Origin: an uncultured Actinomycetes bacterium
GTDB taxonomy: Bacteria; Actinomycetota; Coriobacteriia; Coriobacteriales; RUG844
DNA: 16,289 nucleotides
NCBI GenBank assembly: GCA_900313875.1
Contig: OMSY01000046.1
Location: 1 to 16,289, forward strand
Direction of reading: 5' to 3'
Shown: piece by piece, positions 229 through 16,230 of the stretch
Layout of the letters: every line of letters starts with the position of its first letter
Position numbering within the stretch: the first letter of the stretch is position 1
Notes under the pieces: model-generated
What the model was told of the DNA's origin: nothing
Databases searched by the model: none
What the model saw: the letters and a program-made list of their open reading frames with translations, nothing else
Program-made: the position numbers and the translations under genes

Positions 229-299
229 ACACTCTGAACGACCGGGGTGTCTGCGCCTTCCCCGACGTCTTCTTAGGAGGTTTTACACAAACACTGCGA

Positions 300-349
300 G
301 GGGGGAATCGAAAACCCCGATTTCGAGGAATCGGGGGGAAATCGGGGGG
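300..349. repeat. G-run cluster with short hairpin in a noncoding stretch (229-462)
   Basis: The 230 bases after the ATPase stop hold no convincing gene. They contain three runs of six G (300-305, 333-338, 344-349). The last two are part of a direct repeat AATCGGGGGG. An 8-bp inverted repeat, CCCCGATT (315-322) against AATCGGGG (329-336), can form a hairpin with a 6-nt loop. A 140-codon frame (33-455) crosses this region but has no ribosome binding site and an arginine-rich, low-complexity product, so I regard it as spurious. The role is unknown; it may be the terminator region of the ATPase gene or residue of the element's end. Confidence 0.45.
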
Positions 350-462
350 AGTGTTAGAGAGCGCGTCCCGAAAGAACCGAGAGAATGAAATAGAAAAATC
401 GAATCTGAACTGGGATTACGGCTTGACAGACGAAAGTGGCGAGACGTCCCGATAATGGAAAC

Positions 463-512
463 GCCAGTTCATAATCCGGAGGTCGTAGGTTCGAATCCGG
501 CCCCCACAACCA
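463..512 (+). pseudogene. Decayed 3' half of an initiator-type tRNA(Met); putative attachment-site remnant
   Basis: The segment contains a TTCATAA anticodon-like loop (CAT at 470-472), then GGAGGTCGTAGG, the T-loop TTCGAAT and an acceptor 3' strand ending in an encoded CCA at 510-512. GGAGGTCGTAGGTTCGAATCC is what I recall of the 3' half of bacterial initiator tRNAs. There is no matching 5' half: no TGTGGGG acceptor strand or D-arm in the 60 bases upstream. The anticodon stem does not pair well and the T-stem has a mismatch (GTAGG against CCGGC). It is therefore not a working tRNA. A 3'-half copy of about 50 bp is typical of the far end of an element that integrated into a tRNA gene, which would put the element on the left, with the ATPase gene. 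Simple gene decay is the alternative. Confidence 0.6.
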
Positions 513-519
513 AAAGCTC

Positions 520-553
520 AAAGCCCTGGCCTGGAAACCAGCCCAGGGCTTTT
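520..553 (+). terminator. Rho-independent terminator after the tRNA remnant
   Basis: The stem is AAAGCCCTGG (520-529) paired with CCAGGGCTTT (543-552). After one C/C mismatch a further 4-bp stem CTGG/CCAG (531-534, 538-541) closes on an AAA loop. The 3' side runs into TTTT. The AAA/TTT ends make it work in both directions. It follows the CCA of the tRNA remnant by 7 bases, as expected for the original terminator of a tRNA gene. Confidence 0.85.
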
Positions 554-609
554 CGTTGCGGGGGGATTTCTCGGTCTGCGAGCTCTCAAGACCATGTTGG
601 AATTGATGG

Positions 610-638
610 TTGACATGTAGGTTAGGTTGAGCTAACTT
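610..638 (+). promoter_or_regulatory. tetR promoter with embedded GTTAG-N6-CTAAC operator (site 1)
   Basis: A -35 box TTGACA (610-615) and a -10 box TAACTT (633-638) are 17 bases apart. The inverted repeat GTTAG (621-625) - N6 - CTAAC (632-636) fills the spacer and overlaps the -10, so a bound dimer would block RNA polymerase. The same palindrome with the same spacer lies before the transport operon (1333-1348) and before the methyltransferase (8281-8296). This is strong internal evidence that it is the binding site of the TetR protein encoded just downstream, and hence that tetR is autoregulated. Confidence 0.8.
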
Positions 639-685
639 TCGGTGAAAACAGTGTTATCACGATGAAACGAGCCCACAGGAGCGAC

Positions 686-1309
686 ATGGCAGCCTTCGAC
701 GAAACGATCGACCCGAAGATCAGAGAGAGCGCGATGGAGGAGTTCCTCGAAAAGGGCTTCATAAACGCATCCTTGCGGAAGATTTGCGCGAAGGCCGGCG
801 TCACCACAGGTGCGCTGTACAAGCGCTACGGCAGCAAAGAGGACCTCTTCCAAGCTCTCGTGCAGGCGGCCATAGATGACATCGACGCGGTTGTCGCATC
901 CAAGAGCGTCGATTACTCCCTCGTGACGGACGAGCAGCTCTACGACATGTGGACGCTGACCGAAGGGTATTTGGATTGGTGGTTCGAGTTCATGATCGAC
1001 CGCAAAGACAGCTTTACGCTGCTCGTCAAATGCTCGGAGGGAACACAGTACCAAGACTTTCAGCACGAGCTGGTGGAGAAGGTCTGCCGGGAAACATACA
1101 AGTGCTATCGCGTTGCCGCCGATCGCGGTTTGGCGAGGGACGATATCACCTCACGGGAGCTGCACGTGCTCACGACGGCATTTTGGAGCACGATGTTCGA
1201 ACCCCTTGTCCACGACTTCACCGATGAGGAGATTCGGCTCCATTGCCAGCTTACCATCCAGTTCATCGACTGGCACCGCGCGCTGGGTTTCCATGATCGA
1301 AAGGCCTGA
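686..1309 (+). CDS. TetR/AcrR-family transcriptional regulator
   Basis: This is a cytoplasmic DNA-binding repressor of about 207 residues, a normal TetR length. Residues ~8-55 hold the TetR_N domain: IRESAMEEFLEKGF, then the helix-turn-helix SLRKICAKAGVTTGALYKRYGSKEDLF, with the usual G-x-x-x-G-x-(L/I)-Y-x-(R/H)-(Y/F) recognition helix. The C-terminal ligand domain is rich in aromatic residues (WTLTEGYLDWWFEF) and resembles nothing I can name. I chose the ATG at 686 because AGGAG (677-681) precedes it; an in-frame ATG at 662 would add eight residues but has no Shine-Dalgarno sequence. The gene is followed after ~50 bases by the ABC/ECF operon. Its likely operator occurs in its own promoter and at two further targets, so it probably acts as a local repressor relieved by the transported compound or a related metabolite. 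The ligand is unknown. Confidence 0.93.
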   Translation: MAAFDETIDPKIRESAMEEFLEKGFINASLRKICAKAGVTTGALYKRYGSKEDLFQALVQAAIDDIDAVVASKSVDYSLVTDEQLYDMWTLTEGYLDWWFEFMIDRKDSFTLLVKCSEGTQYQDFQHELVEKVCRETYKCYRVAADRGLARDDITSRELHVLTTAFWSTMFEPLVHDFTDEEIRLHCQLTIQFIDWHRALGFHDRKA

Positions 1310-1322
1310 TGGACTTCTTTTT

Positions 1323-1350
1323 TTGATTATGAGTTAGCTTTTCCTAACTA
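1323..1350 (+). promoter_or_regulatory. Transport-operon promoter with GTTAG-N6-CTAAC operator (site 2)
   Basis: A -35-like TTGATT (1323-1328) and a -10-like TAACTA (1345-1350) are 16 bases apart. The inverted repeat GTTAG (1333-1337) - N6 - CTAAC (1344-1348), extended by one A/T pair on each side, lies between them in the same position as in the tetR promoter. The operon's Shine-Dalgarno sequence GAGGAGG (1353-1359) follows immediately, so the transcript from this promoter would be nearly leaderless. Read-through from tetR is also possible because no terminator separates the genes. Confidence 0.75.
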
Positions 1351-1363
1351 ATGAGGAGGTCGA

Positions 1364-3094
1364 ATGTTCGACAAGGTCCGACCATACATGGAAGGATACA
1401 TGGGCTATACGTACAAGGCGATTGCATGCGTCTGCGTCGCCATCGTCCTGAGCGTCATCCCGTACTTCTTCCTGTACCAAATCCTGGCCCCGCTGATAGC
1501 GGGCCAGACGTTGAAGTCTGGCCATGTGCTGCTGCTCGTGGCGTGCGCGGCGATATGCCTGGCAGGCAACGCGCTGCTGTACGTGAAGGGACTCGAATAC
1601 TCCCACATGTGCGCCTACAACACGCTGAGGAACATCCGCACCGCTTTGCAACAGAAGCTGGAGGTGCAACCGCTCGGCACCATCCGTGAGCTGGGCAACG
1701 GGCGCATCAAGAAGATGTTCACCGACGACATCGAAACCATCGAGATCCTGCTCGCGCACGCCATCCCCGAGGGAATCGGGAACCTGCTGGTCCCGACCAT
1801 CGTGATCGTCGCCATGTTCTTCGTGGACTGGAAGCTTGCGCTCTTGTGCATCGCCTCCCTGCCGTTGGGGCTGCTGGCCATGGGCATGATGTACAAGGCA
1901 GGCATGAGGCGCATGGAAACCTACTACGGTGCCGCCGCCAAGATGAACAACACCATCATCGAGTACATCAACGGCATGGAAGTCCTGAAGGTGTTCAACC
2001 GCGACGGCGAAAGCTACCGGCGTTTCGAAGGGGATATCACGAGCTATCGCGATTTCACCTTGGCATGGTACAAGGTCTGTTGGCCTTGGATGGCGCTGTA
2101 TTCCAGCATCATACCCTGCGTGGCGCTGTTCACCATCCCCTTCGGCGCCTGGTTCGTCCTGCAGGGTTGGAGCAGCTTGGCCGACCTCATCCTGGTCATC
2201 TGCATGTCGCTCGCCGTCGGTGAACCTCTTCTGAAGGCCATGAGCTTCGGCGGCAAGTTCCCGCAACTGAACTACAAGATCGACGAGCTGGAACGACTCA
2301 TCGAGCACCCGGCGCTGAAGCAATCGGAACGCGGTTTCGAGGGTGACGGCCACGGCATCTGCTTCGAGGACGTGCGCTTCTCCTACAAGGACGCCGAGGT
2401 CATCCACGGCATCGAGCTGAAGCTTGAAGAGGGCACCATGACCGCGCTCGTCGGCGAATCGGGCAGCGGCAAGTCCACCTTGGCAAAACTGCTGGTGCAC
2501 TTCTACGACTTGGACAGCGGGCGCATCACGCTGGGCGGGCAGGACCTGACCGACATGCGGATCGAGGCACTCAACGACCAGATCTCGTATGTATCGCAGG
2601 AGCAGTTCCTGTTCAACACGAGCCTGTACGAGAACATCCTCATCGGACGCCCCGACGCTAGCCGCGAGGATGTCATCGAGGCTGCTCGCCGGGCGCAGTG
2701 TGACGAGTTCCTCGCCCGCTTCCCGCAGGGAATCGACACGCCCGCTGGTGACGGCGGCAAGATGCTCTCCGGTGGCGAGCGGCAGCGCATATCCCTTGCG
2801 CGCGCCCTGCTGAAGGACGCGCCGGTCATCGTGCTCGACGAGGCGACCGCTTTCATCGACCCCGAGAACGAGGAGAAGATGAATGCCGCCATCTCCGAGA
2901 TCATAGAGGGCAAGACGGTTCTGGTCATCGCCCACCGACTGCACACCGTCACCGGGGCGGACAAGATCGTCGTGCTCAAAGACGGCACCGTCGAGGCGCA
3001 GGGCACGCACGAGGAGCTGCTCGGAAGCTCCAATGAATACCGGCGCCTGTGGGCGGCGGCACAGGAGAGCGCCGCTTGGGAGGTGGGGGCATGA
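1364..3094 (+). CDS. ABC transporter, fused permease/ATPase, first half of a heterodimer (siderophore/heme-associated type)
   Basis: A 576-residue half-transporter with the exporter fold: membrane domain ~1-310 with six predicted helices (e.g. LLLVACAAICLAGNALLYV, VIVAMFFVDWKLALLCIA), then an ATPase domain. Walker A GESGSGKST is at 364-372 (K370), the signature LSGGE at 468-472, Walker B with D492/E493, and the switch histidine at H524, so this subunit looks catalytically complete. It starts at ATG 1364 behind GAGGAGG and overlaps the next gene by ATGA, which implies translational coupling. Pairs of this type next to ECF genes occur with iron-chelate or heme uptake clusters (e.g. YbtP/YbtQ-like proteins, and the streptococcal sia operon, as I recall). 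Despite the exporter fold, such pairs can work as importers. The substrate cannot be read from the sequence; multidrug or peptide export is the alternative. Confidence 0.92.
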   Translation: MFDKVRPYMEGYMGYTYKAIACVCVAIVLSVIPYFFLYQILAPLIAGQTLKSGHVLLLVACAAICLAGNALLYVKGLEYSHMCAYNTLRNIRTALQQKLEVQPLGTIRELGNGRIKKMFTDDIETIEILLAHAIPEGIGNLLVPTIVIVAMFFVDWKLALLCIASLPLGLLAMGMMYKAGMRRMETYYGAAAKMNNTIIEYINGMEVLKVFNRDGESYRRFEGDITSYRDFTLAWYKVCWPWMALYSSIIPCVALFTIPFGAWFVLQGWSSLADLILVICMSLAVGEPLLKAMSFGGKFPQLNYKIDELERLIEHPALKQSERGFEGDGHGICFEDVRFSYKDAEVIHGIELKLEEGTMTALVGESGSGKSTLAKLLVHFYDLDSGRITLGGQDLTDMRIEALNDQISYVSQEQFLFNTSLYENILIGRPDASREDVIEAARRAQCDEFLARFPQGIDTPAGDGGKMLSGGERQRISLARALLKDAPVIVLDEATAFIDPENEEKMNAAISEIIEGKTVLVIAHRLHTVTGADKIVVLKDGTVEAQGTHEELLGSSNEYRRLWAAAQESAAWEVGA

Positions 3095-4830
3095 TCGCAT
3101 TCATCGGCAGGATCCTGAGGGTCGCGCACGATTACCGTGGGAGGATCTATGTGACGGCGGCGTGCTCGTTCCTGAAGGCGTTCCTGGGCAAAGCTCCCAT
3201 CGTCGTGACCTTCTTCCTGGCTGTGGGCTTCCTTGACGGCTCCATCACAGAGGCGAGCTGTCTGTGGGCGGGATTGGCGCTCGTGACCTGCATCGTGTTG
3301 CAATGCGTGTTCCAGAACATCGCCGACCGGCTCCAGTCCGCAGCCGGCTTCGAGATCTTCGCGGACATGCGCCTTGGCCTGGGCGAACGCCTCCGCAAGA
3401 TGCCGATGGGCTTCTTCACGGAGGGCAACATCGGTCGCATCAGCTCGGTGCTCTCCACCGACATGAATTTCATCGAGGAGAACCTGATGATGGTTCTCGC
3501 CGACTTGATGAGCTACGTGTTCTCCGCCACGGTCTTCATCCTGTTCATGCTCGCATTCGATTGGAGGCTCGGCCTTCTGTGCCTGCTCGTCGCCGGCATC
3601 GTGTTCGGCATCGGCGAAGCCATGAAGAAGAACACGCTGATGCACTCCAACGAGCGCCAGGAGGCGAGCCAACAACTCACCGAGGCCATCATCGACTTCA
3701 CCGAGGGCATGGGCATCATCAAGACCTACAACATGCTGGGGGAGAAGTCCAAGGAGCTCACGGACGCCTTCCAGGTATCCTGCGACAAGAACCTCAGCTT
3801 CGAGTTCGATTTCGCTCCCTGGGCGAAGGCGCTCAACCTGGCCTGCGGGCTCGGCAGCGCTGCGATGCTTGGCGCCATGTGGCTGCTGTACCAAAGCGGG
3901 TCGTTGTCGCTTGCCTTCTTCATCGGCATGTTGCTGTTCGTGTTCGAGCTGTTCGGTCCGCTCAAGGCGTTCTACGGACAGGTTGCACGGCTCACCGTGA
4001 TGGACGCCTGCCTCGACCGCATCGAGGCGATCTTCGCCGAACCGGAGCTTGCCGACGATGGCGACGGGCTTATTCCCGCAGATGGCGTGCCGGAGATCGA
4101 GTTCGACGACGTCAGCTTCGCCTACGGAGCCGAAGACGTCCTGCATGACATCAGCTTCACGGTGCCGAGGAACACCATGACGGCGCTCGTCGGCCCCTCC
4201 GGTGGGGGCAAATCCACCATCGCGAGCCTGCTCGCCCGTTTCTGGGACGTGCGGGAAGGCAGCGTGAGGCTGCGCGGTCAGGACATTCGCGAGGTGCCAC
4301 TTTCCCAGGTGATGGACAGTATCAGCATGGTGTTCCAGCGGGTCTACCTGTTCCAGGACACGGTATACAACAACATCGCTATGGGTCGCACGGACGCGAC
4401 GAAGGAAGAAGTATACGAGGCCGCGCGGAAAGCCCGCTGCTACGACTTCATCATGGAGCTGCCGCAGGGTTTCGACACGGTGATCGGCGAGGGCGGGGCG
4501 TCGCTTTCCGGTGGCGAGCAGCAGCGCATCTCCATCGCACGCTGCATCCTCAAGGACGCCCCCATCGTCATTCTGGACGAAGCCACCGCCAGTGTGGATG
4601 CCGATAACGAAAGCCACATCCAGGCAGCGATTTCGGAACTTGTGAAAGACAAAACCGTGCTGGTCATCGCCCATCGGCTGCATACGATTGCCGGTGCCGA
4701 CCAGATCCTCGTGGTGAGTGACGGGCGCATCGTCGAACGTGGCAGCCACGAAACGCTCATGGCCCAAAGCGGCGTTTACGCCGACATGGTTCGGAAAAAG
4801 GCTTCCATGCGAAGCTTCATGGATAAGTAA
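3091..4830 (+). CDS. ABC transporter, fused permease/ATPase, second half of the heterodimer
   Basis: A 579-residue half-transporter, partner of the preceding protein. Membrane helices occupy ~1-310 (e.g. APIVVTFFLAVGFLDG, VFILFMLAFDWRLGLLCLLV). The ATPase domain has Walker A GPSGGGKST at 368-376 (K374), signature LSGGE at 472-476, Walker B D496/E497 and switch H528. Both ATPase sites of the pair therefore look canonical, unlike many heterodimeric exporters in which one site is degenerate. The ATG at 3091 overlaps the upstream stop as ATGA and has GGGAGG (3078-3083) before it; a longer frame from ATG 3049 would add a glycine/arginine-rich stretch and is unlikely. Fifteen bases separate it from the ECF S-component gene, so it sits mid-operon. 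The substrate is inferred from context only. Confidence 0.92.
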   Translation: MIAFIGRILRVAHDYRGRIYVTAACSFLKAFLGKAPIVVTFFLAVGFLDGSITEASCLWAGLALVTCIVLQCVFQNIADRLQSAAGFEIFADMRLGLGERLRKMPMGFFTEGNIGRISSVLSTDMNFIEENLMMVLADLMSYVFSATVFILFMLAFDWRLGLLCLLVAGIVFGIGEAMKKNTLMHSNERQEASQQLTEAIIDFTEGMGIIKTYNMLGEKSKELTDAFQVSCDKNLSFEFDFAPWAKALNLACGLGSAAMLGAMWLLYQSGSLSLAFFIGMLLFVFELFGPLKAFYGQVARLTVMDACLDRIEAIFAEPELADDGDGLIPADGVPEIEFDDVSFAYGAEDVLHDISFTVPRNTMTALVGPSGGGKSTIASLLARFWDVREGSVRLRGQDIREVPLSQVMDSISMVFQRVYLFQDTVYNNIAMGRTDATKEEVYEAARKARCYDFIMELPQGFDTVIGEGGASLSGGEQQRISIARCILKDAPIVILDEATASVDADNESHIQAAISELVKDKTVLVIAHRLHTIAGADQILVVSDGRIVERGSHETLMAQSGVYADMVRKKASMRSFMDK

Positions 4831-4845
4831 ACGAAAGGGAAAACC

Positions 4846-5436
4846 ATGAACGAAAGCAACAAACTTACCATAAAAGACCTTATCAACATCGGCGTGTTCA
4901 CCGCGCTCTACTTCGTGGTGTTCTTCGTCGTCAGCTTTGTGGGCTACGTTCCCATCCTGATGGTCCTTCTGCCCTTCATCTGCCCCATCGTCGCGGGGAT
5001 CCCGTACATGCTCTTTCTCACGAGGGTGAGGAAGTTCGGCATGGTGCTCATCATGGCGCTCATCCTGGGCCTGTTGGAGCTGGTGATGGGGCGCCCCTGG
5101 CCGGTGGTGCTCATTGCAATCGCCGCCGGGCTGTGCGCCGAGCTGATCCTGAAGGCAGGCCAGTACAAGAGCGTGAAGTCCTGCGTCCTGTCCTCTGGTG
5201 TCTTCTCCCTATGGATGATCGGCATGGCGCTGCCGCTGTTCTTCGGCTATCGCGACAGCTACCTCGCGGGCCTCGTCAGTGGATACGGCCAGGCCTATGT
5301 GGACACGTTGGCCAGCCTCACACCGGATTGGGCATTTTTCGCGCTGATTGCGCTGTGCTTCGTCGGCGGCATCATCGGTGGTCTTGTGGGCTCGGCGGTT
5401 CTGAAGAAGCATTTCAAGAAGGCGGGTATGGCCTGA
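4846..5436 (+). CDS. ECF transporter S component, MptD/Trep_Strep-like family
   Basis: A 196-residue, almost wholly hydrophobic protein with about six membrane helices: LINIGVFTALYFVVFFVVSF, VLLPFICPIVAGIPYML, FGMVLIMALILGLLELVM, CVLSSGVFSLWMIGMALPL, and WAFFALIALCFVGGIIGGLV near the C-terminus. The N-terminal pattern (K-L-T-I-K-D-L-I-N-I-G-V-F-T-A-L) and length match the S components annotated as the MptD or Trep_Strep family (TIGR02185), which bind the substrate in an energy-coupling-factor importer. The start has AAAGGGA upstream with 7-nt spacing. EcfT follows one base after the stop and the double ATPase after that, so a complete importer is encoded here. The family substrate is not firmly established; related cassettes are linked to heme or chelated metal. 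It is the most likely specificity determinant of the operon. Confidence 0.85.
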   Translation: MNESNKLTIKDLINIGVFTALYFVVFFVVSFVGYVPILMVLLPFICPIVAGIPYMLFLTRVRKFGMVLIMALILGLLELVMGRPWPVVLIAIAAGLCAELILKAGQYKSVKSCVLSSGVFSLWMIGMALPLFFGYRDSYLAGLVSGYGQAYVDTLASLTPDWAFFALIALCFVGGIIGGLVGSAVLKKHFKKAGMA

Positions 5437-5437
5437 T

Positions 5438-6160
5438 ATGCAGGCACAGGTAGACACGTTTCGCATTACTGGCGAGCGCTCGATTCTGGACCCAAGAGTC
5501 GGGATGCTCGCCATCCTGACCGTGAGCGCGGTGATGATCGGTGGCAGCATCACCGGCATCGACTTTTGGCTGCGCCTGGTCTGTTGCGTGCTGCCGCTGC
5601 TGGGCCTTGTGGCGCTTCGCCGCTGGCGGTTCGCGGTGGTCTACGCAGCGCTTTATGCCTTCGCGCTCATGATGGAGGGTGCCGTCTTCCAGCTGACCAG
5701 CGGCGCATTCAACATGGTCGTCATGATCCTGGGCGGTCTCATCTCCCGGTTCTTCGCACCTGTCGTGATGGGATACTGCGTGATGCAGAGCACGACCGTC
5801 GCGGAGTTCATCGCCGCCATGGAACGGATGCACGTCCCCTCCGCGGTGACAATTCCCTTGTCGGTCATGTTCCGCTTCTTCCCGACGATTGCCGAGGAGA
5901 ATGGCGCCATAACCGAGGCCATGAGGATGCGGCAGGTCTCGGGCATGCGTCGGGGGCTGGTGAAGCGCATGGAGTACGAGCTGGTGCCGGTCATGATGAG
6001 CACCGTCCGCATCTCCGATGAGCTCTCGCAGGCGGCGCTGACCAAAGGGCTTGGCGGCGACACAAGGCGCACGCACATCTGCGAAGTCGGTTTCCGAGCG
6101 CGTGACTACGTTTTGCTGGTGCTGCTTTCGGCGGTGCTCGTCCTGTTTGTGGTGACCTGA
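5438..6160 (+). CDS. ECF transporter T component (EcfT/CbiQ family)
   Basis: A 240-residue membrane protein that couples the ATPases to the S component. Helices are visible at ~22-38, 42-60, 66-80, 92-112 and near the C-terminus (YVLLVLLSAVLVLFVV). The cytoplasmic coupling region lies at ~120-206 and includes AMRMRQ (161-166) and ALTKGLG (200-206), which occupy the place of the two A-R-G-type coupling motifs that dock in the ATPase grooves. The starting ATG lies one base after the stop of the S-component gene; a weak GAAGGCGG lies further upstream, so translation is probably coupled. Length is slightly below the ~260 residues usual for EcfT. Family confidence is high; the substrate depends on the S component. 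Confidence 0.87.
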   Translation: MQAQVDTFRITGERSILDPRVGMLAILTVSAVMIGGSITGIDFWLRLVCCVLPLLGLVALRRWRFAVVYAALYAFALMMEGAVFQLTSGAFNMVVMILGGLISRFFAPVVMGYCVMQSTTVAEFIAAMERMHVPSAVTIPLSVMFRFFPTIAEENGAITEAMRMRQVSGMRRGLVKRMEYELVPVMMSTVRISDELSQAALTKGLGGDTRRTHICEVGFRARDYVLLVLLSAVLVLFVVT

Positions 6161-6161
6161 C

Positions 6162-7685
6162 ATGATCGAGCTCAAAGATGTCTCATATGCCTACCGCGTG
6201 ACCGATGCGGATGGGAACGTTCAGATGCGTCCAGCTCTGAAGAAGACAAGCCTGTCCATTCGGGCTGGCGAGTTCGTCGTGCTTACCGGCGGGTCCGGGT
6301 GCGGGAAGACGACCGTCTGCCGCCTGCTCAACGGGCTGATTCCCCATTACTTCGAGGGGGAGCTTGAAGGTGAGGTTCTGCTGGACGGCGCGAACGTTGC
6401 CGCACAGCCCATCTACGAGACGGCCAAGCGCGTGGGAAGCGTCTTCCAGAACCCCCGTAGCCAGTTCTTCAACGTGGATACCACAAGCGAGCTCGCCTTC
6501 GCCGCGGAGAACCAGGGGCGCGACCCGGAGCGTATCAGGCGCGATATCGCCGTCGCAGCCGAACGGCTCGGCCTGGAGCCGCTGTTGAGGCGAAGCATGT
6601 TCGCCCTGTCCGGTGGGGAGAAGCAGAAAATCGCCTGCGGCAGCGTGGCCGTGGCAGACAGCGATGTGGTCGTTTTGGATGAGCCGTCGTCGAACTTGGA
6701 TGTGGAGGGCATCGAGGCGCTGCGCGCGACGCTCGTTCTCTGGAAGGAGCAGGGCAAGACGGTCGTCATCGCCGAACACCGGCTCTTCTTCCTCAAGGGG
6801 ATTGCCGACCGCGTCCTGGTTTTCCGCGACGGGGAGGTCGTCCGCTCGCTGGATGCGGTCGCGTTCGCGATGCTGACTCCCGAGGAATGCGTGGGGATGG
6901 GCCTTCGAGCGACGGACCTGAACTCCGTGGCTTTCCCGGCCCATAGCATCGACGAGAGCCCCGTGGTCATCCTGAAAGATGTGAGTTTCCACTACACGAA
7001 AGAAAGCGGCATGGACATTCCGAGTCTGTCGCTGCCCCAAGGACAGATCACGGTTGTGATCGGGCGGAACGGTGCCGGCAAGAGCACGTTGGCGCGGGCT
7101 CTCTGCGGATTGAACAGGCGGGCCAAGGGCTCGGTCGTTCTGGGCGGTGAAACGATCCCCCTCTCCAGAATGCTCTCACGATGCTACCTGGTCATGCAGG
7201 ACGTGAACCACCAGCTGTTCACCGACAGCGCGCTGGAAGAGGTGCGGATCAGCGTGCCGGAAACGGTTCCCGAGAAGCTGCGGGAGGAAAAGGCGCGTGA
7301 GGCTCTCCGGCTCGTGGGTATGGAGGAATTCTCCGAGCAGCATCCGATGGCGCTCTCTGGCGGTCAGAAGCAGCGCGTCGCCATCGCGAGCGCGATTGCC
7401 GCGAACAAGGAGATTCTCATCTTCGACGAGCCCACCAGCGGCCTCGATTACGTCCACATGCGCCAAACCGCCGACGCACTCCAGGCACTCCGGGACCTCG
7501 GCAAGACGATCCTTGTCATCACCCATGACGTGGAGCTCATCGCGTTGTGCGCCGACAATGTCGTGCGGATGGATGACGGCCGAATCGCCGAGAGCTACTG
7601 TGTCAACGTCGAGAACGTGCCCCGGCTTGTCTCCTTCTTTCTGAATCAGCCCGCACAACAGCCGGCCGTTGCCGTAACGACATAG
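6162..7685 (+). CDS. ECF transporter ATPase, two ATPase domains in one chain (EcfA1-EcfA2 fusion, CbiO-like)
   Basis: A 507-residue cytoplasmic ATPase made of two complete ABC domains. Domain 1: Walker A GGSGCGKTT at 43-51 (K49), signature LSGGE 149-153, Walker B D173/E174, and H206 in AEHR. Domain 2: Walker A GRNGAGKST 301-309 (K307), signature LSGGQ 398-402, Walker B D422/E423, and H455 in THD. In standard group II ECF systems these are two proteins of ~280 residues; here they are fused, as in many dedicated (group I-like) modules. All catalytic residues are present in both halves. It starts one base after the EcfT stop. It completes the operon ABC-ABC-S-T-A. A weak hairpin and then a long noncoding region follow, so this is probably the last gene. 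Confidence 0.92.
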   Translation: MIELKDVSYAYRVTDADGNVQMRPALKKTSLSIRAGEFVVLTGGSGCGKTTVCRLLNGLIPHYFEGELEGEVLLDGANVAAQPIYETAKRVGSVFQNPRSQFFNVDTTSELAFAAENQGRDPERIRRDIAVAAERLGLEPLLRRSMFALSGGEKQKIACGSVAVADSDVVVLDEPSSNLDVEGIEALRATLVLWKEQGKTVVIAEHRLFFLKGIADRVLVFRDGEVVRSLDAVAFAMLTPEECVGMGLRATDLNSVAFPAHSIDESPVVILKDVSFHYTKESGMDIPSLSLPQGQITVVIGRNGAGKSTLARALCGLNRRAKGSVVLGGETIPLSRMLSRCYLVMQDVNHQLFTDSALEEVRISVPETVPEKLREEKAREALRLVGMEEFSEQHPMALSGGQKQRVAIASAIAANKEILIFDEPTSGLDYVHMRQTADALQALRDLGKTILVITHDVELIALCADNVVRMDDGRIAESYCVNVENVPRLVSFFLNQPAQQPAVAVTT

Positions 7686-7689
7686 CCTT

Positions 7690-7707
7690 GCCAGCTGGAC
7701 GGCTGGC
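7690..7707 (+). terminator. Short hairpin after the transport operon (weak terminator candidate)
   Basis: GCCAGC (7690-7695) pairs with GCTGGC (7702-7707) across a 6-nt loop, starting five bases after the EcfA stop. There is no T-run, so intrinsic termination is doubtful. Position is the main argument. Confidence 0.3.
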
Positions 7708-7829
7708 CTCCCGATAAAGGACCGTCGTCTTCTGCTAAAACGTGCGCTCGGATGCCTCCAAGGCGTTCGGGTGACGCTGGCGATGAATCAGGCTGAGCCC
7801 GAGAGCGTGGTCGAACCCCTTCAGCGGCT

Positions 7830-8059
7830 CTCCGACCCCTCGGCACCTTGCACTTTTCAAGAAGGACGCTGATTGTGTCACGAAGTCGAGTTTTTACAAT
7901 CATTCCGGCCCGGTTACGACCGAATACGTGCAATCAGGGGGCTAAAACGGTCGTCCATCGCCGCAATTCTCACGATTTCGAGCGAGTCAATTGTAAAAAC
8001 TCGACTTCGTGACATGTTCCGAGAGGCTTTTGAAACAAGCGCTGGCATAGGGGTCGGAG
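7830..8059. repeat. Large palindromic intergenic repeat, copy 1 (core 7876-8014)
   Basis: A perfect 25-bp inverted repeat, starting TGTCACGAAGTCGAG and ending TTTTTACAAT (7876-7900), returns as its reverse complement at 7990-8014, giving a 139-bp core. Symmetry continues outwards. On each side, 17 bases beyond the core lies a TTTC/GAAA motif (CTTTTC 7853-7858; GAAACA 8032-8037), and further out CTCCGACCCCT (7830-7840) mirrors AGGGGTCGGAG (8049-8059). The inner loop also has an inverted pair, ACGACCG (7916-7922) / CGGTCGT (7948-7954). No open frame of substance is inside. No target-site duplication is evident. A second copy lies at 13915-14143. It could be a MITE, a REP/BIME-like repeat or a transcribed structured element; the rest of 7686-8280 shows nothing else I can support. 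Confidence 0.8.
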
Positions 8060-8280
8060 CTAGGCACCCTATTGGCCCCGTCCATCGATTCGCCGCTCAG
8101 CGCGCAAGCCCCTCCCCCGTGCTGCGGCAATCCAACTCGCGCCAAGAAAGGGAGGCCCCCCTTTCGGCGTTCCCTTTTGGTTCGGTGCAGCGGATTGGCT
8201 TCCTGCTCTCCTCTGAGATATCCACGCCCACTATCACGCCACGACCTTCGCAATTCTGGTTTTCGTCATATGGTGATTAT

Positions 8281-8298
8281 GTTAGACTGTCCTAACTT
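8281..8298 (+). promoter_or_regulatory. GTTAG-N6-CTAAC operator before the methyltransferase (site 3)
   Basis: GTTAG (8281-8285) - N6 - CTAAC (8292-8296) is the same palindrome as at 621-636 and 1333-1348, and as in the tetR promoter it runs into TAACTT (8293-8298), a -10-like hexamer. The -35 is poor (TGGTGA at 8271-8276 with a 16-nt spacer is the best I see). The GATTAT just before it (8275-8280) also precedes site 2. Transcription would start near 8305, giving a leader of about 120 bases before the methyltransferase ATG. Confidence 0.72.
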
Positions 8299-8310
8299 TA
8301 GTGAAGGGAA

Positions 8311-8368
8311 CCTGGATGCGAAAGGGCAAACCTGCGAGTCTGGCATCCAGGCGCTGCGGCATCGCATA
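8311..8368 (+). promoter_or_regulatory. Structured leader with possible 17-residue upstream peptide
   Basis: CCTGGATGC (8311-8319) pairs perfectly with GCATCCAGG (8343-8351), a 9-bp stem with a 23-nt loop, early in the presumed transcript. A short frame, ATG 8315 to TAG 8366-8368, encodes MRKGKPASLASRRCGIA and has AAGGGA seven bases or so before its ATG. Its start codon lies inside the stem. Stem and mini-frame together would suit a translation-dependent switch in front of the methyltransferase, but this is inference from layout only. I could not fit the segment to a known riboswitch. Confidence 0.35.
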
Positions 8369-8422: not shown

Positions 8423-9019
8423 ATGTCGATTTCAGAGAATTTCGGCAACCCGAAGGGCCTCATAGGCAGATTGATGTTGTCTGGCATGAACATGGGTCAT
8501 ACGCCGATGGCGAAGTGGGGCTTCGCGCAGTTCGAGGTGCCAGAGGCGGCAGTTGTCGTCGACATCGGCTGCGGTGGCGGGTACAACGTGAAGAGGCTTC
8601 TGGAACGCTGTCCGCGGGGCCACGTATTCGGCGTCGATATCTCCGAGGAAAGCGTCAAGAAGTCGCGTGCAGTCAACAAGAGCGAAGTTGGAAAACGCTG
8701 CGACATCGTGCGGGCGAGTGTGGAGGTGCTTCCCTTCGACGATCATGTGCTCGACCTGGCGACGGCGTTCGAGACGGTCTACTTCTGGCCCGACATTGCC
8801 GAGAACTTCAAGGAGGTACGCCGCGTCTTGGCAGACAGCGGGCATTTCGTCGTGATCAACGACCCCGGCAACCCGAACACGCACTGGGAGGACAAGATTC
8901 CCGGCATGAGAGCGTACACGGCCGAGCAGGTCGCCGAAACCATGGAAGCAGCCGGCTTCTCCGACATCCAGATCAGCAGCGAAAAGAACATGTTCTGCGT
9001 GAACGGGACCGCAAAGTAA
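8423..9019 (+). CDS. Class I SAM-dependent methyltransferase
   Basis: A 198-residue soluble enzyme that would transfer a methyl group from S-adenosylmethionine to a small molecule. Motif I VVVDIGCGGGYN has D47 and the glycine loop G49-x-G51-G52-G53; the acidic residue after strand 2 is D72 in FGVDIS. Later motifs are PFDDHVLDLATAFETVYFWPD and LADSGHFVVIND. The fold is that of the UbiE/Methyltransf_11 group, slightly short. I chose ATG 8423 for its AAAGGA (8409-8414) and the methyltransferase-like N-terminus; the frame is open upstream to 8072, but that part runs through the operator and encodes no recognisable domain. It stands alone, ~740 bases after the transport operon, yet carries the same operator, so it is probably co-regulated with transport. 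The substrate is unknown; the transported compound or a metabolite of it is a reasonable guess. Confidence 0.9.
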   Translation: MSISENFGNPKGLIGRLMLSGMNMGHTPMAKWGFAQFEVPEAAVVVDIGCGGGYNVKRLLERCPRGHVFGVDISEESVKKSRAVNKSEVGKRCDIVRASVEVLPFDDHVLDLATAFETVYFWPDIAENFKEVRRVLADSGHFVVINDPGNPNTHWEDKIPGMRAYTAEQVAETMEAAGFSDIQISSEKNMFCVNGTAK

Positions 9020-13914: not shown

Positions 13915-14143
13915 TCTGCACGAGGACGAGCCTCTCTGTTTCATCTGAGCAGGCGAATGTGTCACGAAGTCGAGTTTTTACAATCGATACGTCCGAATTC
14001 ACGCATTTTTCGTTACAAAAGCGATCCTACAACTCATGATTCGCTCGTTTTGGAAGCGATTTGAGAGCATTCGGTTGTAAAAACTCGACTTCGTGACAGC
14101 TTTTGGAGCGGTATTGAAACAGAAGCCATCTTGTCGCTGCAGA
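13915..14143. repeat. Large palindromic intergenic repeat, copy 2 (core 13960-14098)
   Basis: The same arm as at 7876 starts at 13960 (TGTCACGAAGTCGAG...) and returns inverted at 14075-14098, 24 bp perfect; the core is again 139 bp. The outer symmetry is kept with different bases: TGTTTC (13937-13942) and GAAACA (14116-14121) lie 17 bases outside the core, and TCTGCA (13915-13920) mirrors TGCAGA (14138-14143), both 45 bases out. The inner loop is also self-complementary in an imperfect way (CCGAAT near 13992 against ATTCGG near 14069). The loop differs from copy 1 at most positions. It sits between the GyrI-like promoter and the 3' end of the GNAT gene. No gene is seen in 13721-14170. Confidence 0.8.
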
Positions 14144-14719: not shown

Positions 14720-15474
14720 CTGCTTCCCGCTTTCGGTAGTTGCCCGAACTTCAGCTTGAGCGCGCCTTTGCGGCAGGCATCGCAACAGGCAGCGCACTGG
14801 ATGCACTCGGGATGTGTGATGGCGCCCGGTTCCAGCAGCTCGCTCACAGGGAGGCTCATGGGACACACCTGCTCGCAAAGACCGCACGAGATGCACTTGG
14901 CCGAATCGGCGGTCACGTGCAGCTGCGGGACGCGCATGGCAGCGCCGAGCTTCTCGCCGATGATCATGAACGGCGCCATCCAGCAGACGCAATGGCACAT
15001 GGCACGGCGTCCCAGAAACAGATTGGGAACGAAGAACAGCGCCACGATGATGAGATAGACCGCCATCGCGCCAGGAGATGACACCGAGATGCCGCCGTCG
15101 ATGTGGAAGAGGGGGTCGACACATGCGATGCCACCCGCCACGATGAGCCCCGCGACGATGGATGCGACCCACGGCACCCAGATGACCCATTTCAACAGGT
15201 CGCGCTTGCCCGGCTTGCAGTGCTTGCCGACCGCCTGCGCGCCCAGCTCCTGGAAGCCGCCCGCAGGGCAGACCCACCCGCAGCACGCGCGGCGAAGGAA
15301 GACGGCGCTCGTCAGCTGCAGCCCGAACGTGATGGCGCTGCCGGCCACGACGCCCTGGAACGCGCCCCAGGCGATCAGGTAAGGCGAGAAGTAGAAGATG
15401 GTAACGGGGAACAGCGCGAACGATGCGAGCAGAACCCCGATGCGCACGCGCTGGCGCTTCGCCTGGTACCTCAT
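14716..15474 (-). CDS. Membrane polyferredoxin (NapH/YccM-like 4Fe-4S protein)
   Basis: A 252-residue membrane iron-sulfur protein. Hydrophobic helices lie at ~11-32, 38-60, 94-115 and 136-154. C64, C65 and C69 in CCGWVCP and C160-H-C162-V-C164 in MCHCVCW are the paired membrane-edge cysteine clusters typical of the NapH/NosR/CcoG group. Two ferredoxin motifs follow: C194-x2-C197-x2-C200-x3-C204-P and C224-x2-C227-x2-C230-x3-C234 (the second lacks the final proline and has an extra C231). Such proteins pass electrons from the quinone pool or cytoplasmic ferredoxin to a partner reductase. None is visible here, so the partner must be elsewhere. ATG 15474 has AAGGAG and overlaps the tetR stop (ATGA). 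It is unusual that the downstream gene is a GNAT rather than a redox enzyme. Confidence 0.9.
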   Translation of the reverse strand: MRYQAKRQRVRIGVLLASFALFPVTIFYFSPYLIAWGAFQGVVAGSAITFGLQLTSAVFLRRACCGWVCPAGGFQELGAQAVGKHCKPGKRDLLKWVIWVPWVASIVAGLIVAGGIACVDPLFHIDGGISVSSPGAMAVYLIIVALFFVPNLFLGRRAMCHCVCWMAPFMIIGEKLGAAMRVPQLHVTADSAKCISCGLCEQVCPMSLPVSELLEPGAITHPECIQCAACCDACRKGALKLKFGQLPKAGSR

Positions 15475-16046
15475 CGCGACTCCTTCGGGCTGCCGCCCAC
15501 GGCGATGGCGAACGCCTGGAAGGCAATGAACACGCGGTCGGCGAGCTCGTCGTCGGGGATGTCCGCACCGGCGCAGAGCATGACGGCCAGCCCGTGGGTG
15601 TACACGATCATGTTGAGGTACAGCTCGTGAGCTGCAGCGGCATCCAGGTGACCGAGCTCCATGATGCATTCCTCGACGCCGGGCTGAGAGACCGACCGGT
15701 ACAGTTCGTCCAGGTTGCGCGTGTCGAGGTAGGGCGAGAGGTACAGGAACGCGAACAGCAACGGCTCCTCCCGCGCGAGCCGCAGGTGCGCGAGACCATT
15801 CGACTCGAACAGGTTCTCTCCGTCGCCCGCATGCTCTTCGTTGAAGGCGGTCACCCAGGCGCGGGCATGCTCGTAGAGCGCTTGCATGAGTCCTTCCATG
15901 TCGCCGAACAGACTGTAGATGGGTTGAACCGAACAGCCCGCACGCTCTGCTACGGCGCGCGTGCTCAGCGCATCGTACCCGCGCTCACGCACGAGACCGA
16001 GCGCAGCGTCGAGCACGCTTTCCCGGTCGAATCTCTGTGCTGGCAT
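15471..16046 (-). CDS. TetR/AcrR-family transcriptional regulator heading the polyferredoxin operon
   Basis: A 191-residue regulator. TetR_N is at ~5-50: RESVLDAALGLVRERGYDALSTRAVAERAGCSVQPIYSLFGDMEGL. The C-terminal domain (e.g. PLLFAFLYLSPYLDTRN, LYLNMIVYTHGLAVMLCAGADIPDDELADRVF) has the shape of the TetR_C_33/WHG-like ligand domains. ATG 16046 (minus strand) has AAGGGAGG upstream; the frame extends further to 16205 but through the promoter, so that extension is rejected. It overlaps the polyferredoxin gene by 4 bases. A near-perfect 20-bp palindrome sits between the -35 and -10 of its own promoter (16074-16102), so it is probably an autorepressor that controls the polyferredoxin and GNAT genes with itself. 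Inducer unknown. Confidence 0.92.
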   Translation of the reverse strand: MPAQRFDRESVLDAALGLVRERGYDALSTRAVAERAGCSVQPIYSLFGDMEGLMQALYEHARAWVTAFNEEHAGDGENLFESNGLAHLRLAREEPLLFAFLYLSPYLDTRNLDELYRSVSQPGVEECIMELGHLDAAAAHELYLNMIVYTHGLAVMLCAGADIPDDELADRVFIAFQAFAIAVGGSPKESR

Positions 16047-16073
16047 GACCCCTCCCTTGAATATGACATATGT

Positions 16074-16102
16074 AATATAACAATTGTAATATTCTTTGTC
16101 AA
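16074..16102 (-). promoter_or_regulatory. Strong promoter and operator of the tetR-polyferredoxin-GNAT operon
   Basis: On the minus strand TTGACA (plus 16097-16102) and TATATT (plus 16074-16079) are exactly 17 bases apart. The palindrome AATATAACAATTGTAATATT (16074-16093; 18 of 20 positions symmetric around CAATTG) fills the spacer and covers the -10. The AT-rich operator in a GC-rich genome is conspicuous. It is the best binding-site candidate for the TetR protein encoded at 15471-16046. Confidence 0.85.
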
Positions 16103-16180
16103 ACAGTGGGGGAGCTGGATTGTTGGCGCTGGTTCTCGCAATCATCTCGAGTTGACAGGCGGGCGTGGCGAGGCGTCCCG

Positions 16181-16230
16181 GTGGTGACTTCGGCGGGGCG
16201 GGCACAAGCCCGCCCCGCCGAAGTCACCAC
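16181..16230. terminator. 23-bp perfect GC-rich hairpin at the window's right edge
   Basis: Positions 16181-16203 (starting GTGGTGACTTCGG, ending GGGCGGGC) pair base for base with 16208-16230 around the 4-nt loop ACAA. There is no T-run on either strand, so it is not a classical intrinsic terminator, but such GC-rich stem-only hairpins commonly end genes in high-GC bacteria. It lies ~80 bases upstream of the minus-strand tetR promoter and would insulate it from a gene to the right of the window. Confidence 0.7.

Follow-up and report, generated by a model that had tools for sequence, protein, structure and literature searches.

Described iron regulons and the locus studied

The iron regulons governed by the DtxR and IdeR repressors of Actinobacteria are the described systems closest to the locus presented here. 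The DtxR box of Corynebacterium is 19 bp long and reads TTAGGTTAG(G/C)CTAACCTAA (PMC1382209), and a study of IdeR proposed TTAGGNNNNCCTAA as the consensus for one dimer (PMC8464063), which is part of the 19-bp DtxR box. We analysed a stretch of 16,289 nucleotides from an uncultured bacterium of the order Coriobacteriales (contig OMSY01000046.1; the whole stretch is called the window), in which the palindrome GTTAG-N6-CTAAC precedes a tetR gene, a transport operon and a methyltransferase gene. Our interpretation, to which we assign a probability of roughly 0.87, is that this palindrome serves as an iron box for a single dimer of an iron-activated repressor of the DtxR/IdeR family and controls an iron transporter, the methyltransferase and the TetR protein.

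The likeness to the actinobacterial regulons (PMC1382209, PMC8464063) lies in the TTAGG-N4-CCTAA core, the overlap with promoters, the iron uptake genes at the sites and a DtxR-family protein with Met and Cys ligands in the same genome bin. Two differences stand out from the published descriptions: the boxes of the window would be single-dimer boxes flanked by G and C, whereas the known operator is a double box of 19 bp, and the candidate repressor, encoded on contig C66 of the bin, is a protein of 135 amino acids without SH3 domain.

The equibactin locus of Streptococcus equi offers a second comparison. It encodes EqbA, a DtxR-like repressor without SH3 domain that was proposed to use an unlike operator of 36 bp, the importer EqbHIJ, which is needed for most of the equibactin-dependent iron uptake, and EqbKL, a pair of fused permease-ATPase proteins with 28-30% identity to YbtP and YbtQ (PMC3672683). 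We liken our locus to it by gene layout and not by homology to Eqb proteins: an importer and a YbtPQ-related pair are combined with an SH3-less DtxR-like repressor, which in our case is a candidate. In contrast to what is described for S. equi, a scan of 16 proteins of the window, which did not extend to the remainder of the genome, found no genes of siderophore synthesis or of peptide synthetases, and the cassette is accompanied by a methyltransferase and a TetR protein. A third comparison concerns the transporter type rather than membership in the Lha family. LhaSTA, the heme transporter of Staphylococcus lugdunensis, is of the energy-coupling factor (ECF) type and stands under an iron repressor, which is described as Fur rather than DtxR (PMC7299338). 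Among the open-licence literature on DtxR, FeoB, the iron box and GTTAG/CTAAC, no title on this regulon in coriobacteria or Lachnospiraceae was found, which is not proof of absence.

The palindrome in the window and in the home genome bin

A pattern scan of the window detected three exact copies of GTTAG-N6-CTAAC with three differing spacers. The first, GTTAGGTTGAGCTAAC at 621-636, is situated in the tetR promoter between a -35 hexamer TTGACA (610-615) and a -10 hexamer TAACTT (633-638) with a spacing of 17 bp. The second, GTTAGCTTTTCCTAAC at 1333-1348, lies upstream of the transport operon, where TTGATT (1323-1328) stands 16 bp before TAACTA. Upstream of the methyltransferase gene, the third copy, GTTAGACTGTCCTAAC at 8281-8296, shows no good -35 element at a distance of 17 bp (ATGGTG). 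The hexamer TAACTT or TAACTA runs on directly from each of the three sites, and for two of them an overlap with a promoter can be stated. A sequence-only reading of this DNA had pointed out the identical half-sites with different spacers, the -10-like hexamer TAACT(T/A) at each site and the absence of another copy in the window. These observations were reproduced, the last one even at up to two mismatches, where no fourth copy appeared. In shuffled versions of the window, three or more matches at two mismatches occurred in 50 of 200 shuffles; all three real sites are exact, however.

The home genome bin (1.16 Mb in 217 contigs, 80% complete) contains eight exact places, and the reversed control pattern none. 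The half-sites are scarce: a sample of 124 kb, taken from 20 other contigs of the bin, contained two copies of GTTAG and two of CTAAC, which corresponds to about 0.0003 palindromes expected per bin. All eight sites fit TTAGG-N4-CCTAA with at most one change, and each of them has at least one perfect TTAGG or CCTAA half. The motif is better written as GTTAGG-N4-CCTAAC, with one half occasionally one base off. Allowing one mismatch, this strict form yielded a ninth place in the bin, 21 bp from the site at a DUF3793 gene; at up to two mismatches it was found at 16 places versus 14 for the control, so that only near-perfect copies are informative.

Of the five sites that lie elsewhere in the bin, four are located on one contig, C66 (locus L009). 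One precedes a radical-SAM gene, one separates a flavodoxin gene from the gene of a DtxR-family repressor, one is situated between feoA and feoB, and one lies upstream of the DUF3793 gene. The fifth, on contig C62, lies between the genes of an FtsX permease and an EamA transporter. It was the presence of dtxR, feoA and feoB together on C66 that pointed to an iron box instead of a TetR operator. In Clostridia and Coriobacteriia, genes of DUF3793 proteins were met repeatedly beside iron boxes or close to them (L067:17774-18352, L009:15728-16429, L047:1686-2414), and these proteins are likely iron-related.

The motif of the window equals the IdeR half-box with a terminal G and C, and its inner part, TTAG-N6-CTAA, is present twice, five bases apart, inside the Corynebacterium DtxR box. 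The best candidate for the repressor in the bin is the 135-residue protein of the DtxR family mentioned above (C66:10019-10426). At the iron-type ligand positions of DtxR it carries Met and Cys, as do its nearest homologues, and the S-x-P-T of the recognition helix is kept; the roles of these ligand and helix residues are described for other family members (PMC3672683, PMC8464063). Its match to DtxR stops at residue 121, leaving out the C-terminal SH3 domain. The top-scoring PDB match of this protein is the manganese regulator MntR (2h09), one site in another genome precedes an Nramp gene, and Asp replaces Met in six of 20 homologues, the more distant ones. A manganese-type or other metal repressor of the DtxR family, responding to Mn rather than Fe, is nevertheless quite unlikely in view of the iron-type Met and Cys in the protein and its nearest homologues and of the sites at feoAB.

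Conservation of the site in other genomes

The upstream regions of feoB served for comparison. Our set comprises 48 such regions from Coriobacteriales of about 1 kb each, selected as the eight top full-length matches and 40 hand-picked ones, and a perfect palindrome was found in 22 of them. Three of these sites (L145, L196, L197) were known beforehand; without them the count is 19 of 45. The 29 other permutations of the half-sites gave a single match altogether in the 48 regions. Among loci with a homologue of the candidate DtxR, its own included, 7 of 20 have a perfect site, and in L219, L226 and L228 feoA and dtxR are divergent, with the site in the space between them. Across the 297 genomes of the order, DtxR homologues (E<=1e-12) were detected in 262 and homologues of the window TetR (E<=1e-20) in 23, the latter in none of the 48 feo regions. 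The palindrome itself is present in 213 of the 297 genomes, a figure that is weak taken alone. A search within the same family covered only three genomes, and the other two were without the strict motif.

Relatives of the ECF S component are encoded in 26 named loci. In 16 of them a perfect site lies at most 210 bp upstream of the cassette or its S gene; for every permuted half-site the number is 0. These loci are not all independent, since L056 has almost the sequence of the window, and L057 closely resembles L058. By group, the site precedes the cassette in three of three Coriobacteriia and in 13 of 16 Clostridia in the wide sense, where the exceptions are L060 with one mismatch, L073 without a site and L081, which begins inside the cassette. 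Loss of the site where the genes stay, which the sequence-only reading named as an outcome refuting its proposal, was seen in cassettes of Methanobrevibacter and Actinomycetes and not in most of those of Coriobacteriia and Clostridia.

Much of the gene set that the home bin has distributed over C66 and the window contig (C117) recurs on two single contigs, which are independent of the binning of the home genome. One of them, from Lachnospiraceae (L059), carries an iron box, then a FeoA-like frame (recognized by eye), a homologue of FeoB, a FeoC-like gene and one unassigned gene, next the methyltransferase and a TetR gene, and finally the cassette behind two iron boxes. In L067, a flavodoxin gene, the cassette and a pair of methyltransferase genes with DUF3793 behind it have iron boxes in front of them, and a further box stands before an enolase-like gene (by eye).

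For the methyltransferase, 29 related genes in other Coriobacteriales genomes were compared; most of these genomes are close relatives of each other, and the 29 loci cannot be counted as independent. A perfect site lies up to 1.5 kb upstream of 23 of them, and all permuted half-sites together were found twice. The reversed control pattern does occur in the larger genomes of the order, too, as one would suppose if a palindrome with ten fixed bases had recurred at promoters by chance. Against 22, 16 and 23 regions with the site at feoB, the cassette and the methyltransferase gene, all permuted half-sites gave 1, 0 and 2, and in the home bin chance is rejected by eight sites versus none and by the expectation of about 0.0003; we regard its probability as negligible. 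The sequence-only reading had named frequent random occurrence of the palindrome across the genome as a refuting outcome, and in the home bin this was not the case.

The TetR gene and a second palindrome

The TetR-family regulator is encoded at 686..1309 on the forward strand (PF00440, E 1.4e-13, scanned from an alternative start at 662). Of the two possible starts, 662 and 686, the latter has the better ribosome site by eye. Between the first iron box and this gene we observed a second palindrome, GTGAAAACAGTGTTATCAC at 642-660, with the core GATAAY-N3-RTTATC at 644-658 containing one mismatch. In its extended form the pattern occurs once in the bin when as many as two mismatches are allowed, and the core is perfect in Olegusella. 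Allowing one mismatch, it was found at eight of ten TetR promoters, 28 to 59 bases before the gene, and at none of 15 cassette promoters; the latter had been picked for having an iron box, and only the absence of GATAAY counts as a test there. The two TetR promoters at which the motif was not seen belong to L063 and L071, and L063 has one copy elsewhere in the locus, the only one seen outside TetR promoters in the loci examined. The palindrome at 642-660 is thus probably the operator of the TetR protein itself, as judged from its distribution. The sequence GATAAT...ATTATC resembles a Fur-type box as well; the spacing of three bases and the near-confinement to tetR promoters make a TetR operator the likelier assignment.

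The iron box is perfect at the tetR promoter of the window and at none of the nine other TetR promoters examined, with a one-mismatch copy in Olegusella and in Atopobium sp. oral taxon 810. Where a TetR gene adjoins the cassette in Clostridia loci, a perfect iron box is missing from all tetR promoters and the GATAAY palindrome from all cassette promoters. These data bear on the proposal of the sequence-only reading that the TetR protein encoded at 686-1309 binds GTTAG-N6-CTAAC at the three promoters and represses all three units. TetR proteins commonly repress their own gene and its neighbours, and the sites do flank tetR, one of them within its promoter. The palindrome marks feoB, however, in genomes and regions without this TetR, and in 7 of the 16 cassettes with a site no TetR homologue was detected in the fetched locus (L065 and L069 show little upstream sequence). 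Together with the separate GATAAY motif at the tetR promoters of relatives, this led us to reject the TetR protein as reader of the palindrome, a role that we consider very unlikely.

A dual control of the cassette, in which the TetR protein acts on it by binding or by read-through from the tetR promoter, in addition to a DtxR-type reader of the palindrome, has a modest chance of being correct. The tetR promoter of the window contains the iron box and the GATAAY palindrome side by side, and the operon follows tetR in the same orientation after a gap of 54 bp. On the other hand, nothing indicates a preference of this group of TetR proteins for GTTAG-type sites, and the operon has a promoter-like site of its own. 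A second TetR-family gene in the window (15471-16202, reverse strand) adjoins the gene of a ferredoxin-type protein and has no iron box beside it.

The transport cassette

The operon downstream of the second iron box consists of five genes on the forward strand. The first two encode ABC half-transporters with PF00664 and PF00005 domains, one YbtP/IrtA-like (1364..3094) and one YbtQ-like (3091..4830). They are followed by an ECF S component of the Trep_Strep/MptD family (4846..5436; PF09605, E 8.2e-64; TIGR02185 above cut-off), a CbiQ-like ECF T component (5438..6160; PF02361) and an ECF double ATPase with two ABC domains (6162..7685; PF00005 twice; TIGR04520 and TIGR04521 just below cut-off), so that the S, T and A components are all present together. 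Among half-transporters in PDB, the first protein matched best to chain A of 6p6i and 8vsi, which is the partner of the chain named YbtQ and hence YbtP, and to IrtA; for the second, YbtQ ranked best, followed by MsbA. These comparisons refer to the best 60 of 239 and 247 chains, in which full-length ABCB proteins score higher because their two domains add up. The pair shares with the YbtPQ and IrtAB importers the heterodimeric architecture of exporter-fold half-transporters. Unlike IrtA, however, it is without the N-terminal part, the match beginning at IrtA residue 304. This part of IrtA is a siderophore-interaction domain.

By analogy with these systems, the cassette probably handles a ferric metallophore. 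The likeliest arrangement is that the ECF part imports the metallophore, and the ABC pair could work in either direction. Heme is a possible cargo as well, because an iron-regulated ECF heme transporter is known.

The methyltransferase

The methyltransferase gene (8423..9019, forward strand) encodes a class I SAM-dependent enzyme (PF08241, E 9.3e-20). Only general methyltransferase domains reached their cut-off for this protein, the NCBIfam models shown in part remained below theirs, and its relatives in PDB and among proteins give no settled substrate. A computed fold of the leader suggests a possible hairpin at 8310-8350 (CCTGGATGC...GCATCCAGG), in the stretch that separates the start codon from the iron box. 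Relatives occur in 7 of the 26 cassette loci, on the same strand in L059, L061, L067 and L068 and on the opposite one in L074-L076. This and the shared exact site uphold the claim of the sequence-only reading that one regulatory signal joins tetR, the transport operon and the methyltransferase gene.

Other methyltransferases stand directly at iron boxes elsewhere, namely genes of the PEMT type (in two scanned loci), one of the LCM type and a further class I gene. In a Coriobacteriales genome (L235:3188-5422) an iron box is followed by three methyltransferase genes in a row, of class I, the homologue of the window gene and one of the LCM family. That the enzyme of the window modifies the metallophore is a guess. 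We would go further only as speculation, with a rather low chance of being right: in a DtxR-type iron-starvation programme of anaerobic gut Coriobacteriia and Clostridia, small-molecule methyltransferases of several families (class I like that of the window, LCM, PEMT) might be a standing part of the importer module and methylate the imported metallophore, either setting the iron free or taking the spent ligand out of use. If true, methylation would be an iron-release step other than reduction or hydrolysis.

Proposed regulation and points that weigh against it

According to the iron-box interpretation, the iron-loaded repressor would cover the promoters and block transcription. When iron is scarce it would depart, and the YbtPQ/IrtAB-like pair, the ECF transporter, the methyltransferase and the TetR protein would be made. 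The ABC pair and the ECF transporter together would probably move a ferric metallophore or a similar iron complex. The TetR protein would be a member of the regulon and not its master, probably repressing itself via GATAAY-N3-RTTATC and perhaps sensing the cargo. Binding by DtxR and the response to iron are predicted here from sequence.

Several observations weigh against this interpretation or limit its strength. Concerning the repressor, three DtxR-family proteins of the bin score above cut-off, so the reader could be another one than the C66 protein, and the recognition helix is not constant among the homologues of the latter. At least seven site-bearing genomes (G024, G027, G032, G051, G053, G069, G131) have no C66 DtxR homologue at E<=1e-12, which makes different readers of the DtxR family possible; different members may read one and the same box. 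Concerning the sites, a perfect copy is missing from 26 of 48 feo regions and 13 of 20 DtxR-homologue loci, and none of four Methanobrevibacter and none of three Actinomycetes cassettes has one. A count with the reversed control, made for the first 101 of the 297 genomes as listed, gave 223 copies in 71 genomes versus 82 control copies in 50 genomes, and 177 versus 82 without the home bin and the outlier G080. Among the 30 loci listed first (L026-L055, all from one family, f5; the domain scan covered 20 neighbouring proteins), some sites adjoin genes without an obvious link to iron (CstA, VanZ, Crp-like), and four of the 30 fall within a predicted frame. Concerning the transporter, the ABC pair may export here, because deletion of eqbKL did not end iron toxicity and the authors of that study suggest efflux (PMC3672683).

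The origin of the contig is a further point of this kind. From 292 to 7444 it differs by seven substitutions from contig C148 in the bin of another family (G029), and the sequences before about position 287 are unrelated. Its tetranucleotide composition fits its own bin with r 0.75, versus 0.80-0.90 for eight other contigs of this bin, and the other bin with 0.77. The contig may therefore be mobile, following a recent transfer, or misbinned. A DtxR-family protein with iron-type ligands is present in the bin, and with a mobile or misbinned contig it is possibly not the C66 protein that reads the sites of the window.

Some additional observations were made outside the regulon. G080, a genome of the same order, has 38 copies of the palindrome versus 0 of the control, more than twice as many as any other genome listed, and may have a large regulon or a site-bearing repeat. 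Two miniature-transposon-like elements of 137 bp in the window (7877-8013 and 13961-14097) have terminal inverted repeats of at least 23 bp (GTCACGAAGTCGAGTTTTTACAA...) and differing interiors; at up to two mismatches the element was absent from 22 other contig stretches of the home bin and 20 of the G029 bin. At 434-545, a tRNA-like 3' end (GGTTCGAATCC...CCA) followed by a terminator-like hairpin was recognized by eye and could mark the insertion point of an island; ARAGORN detected no tRNA there. A tRNA call at 3611-3703, inside the second ABC gene, was taken as false, and a Rfam scan of the window found no RNA family.

Implications

The kind of regulon described here is already known, and what is new is where it was found, in these gut bacteria, and that methyltransferases recur in it. 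Palindromes without explanation, three in number, and an ABC/ECF cassette without assignment in gut Coriobacteriia become a testable iron regulon with a short defined signal, whose reader is unlikely to be encoded by the regulator gene next door. The motif may serve in the search for iron genes of little-studied gut bacteria, and it already points to recurring iron-boxed methyltransferases.

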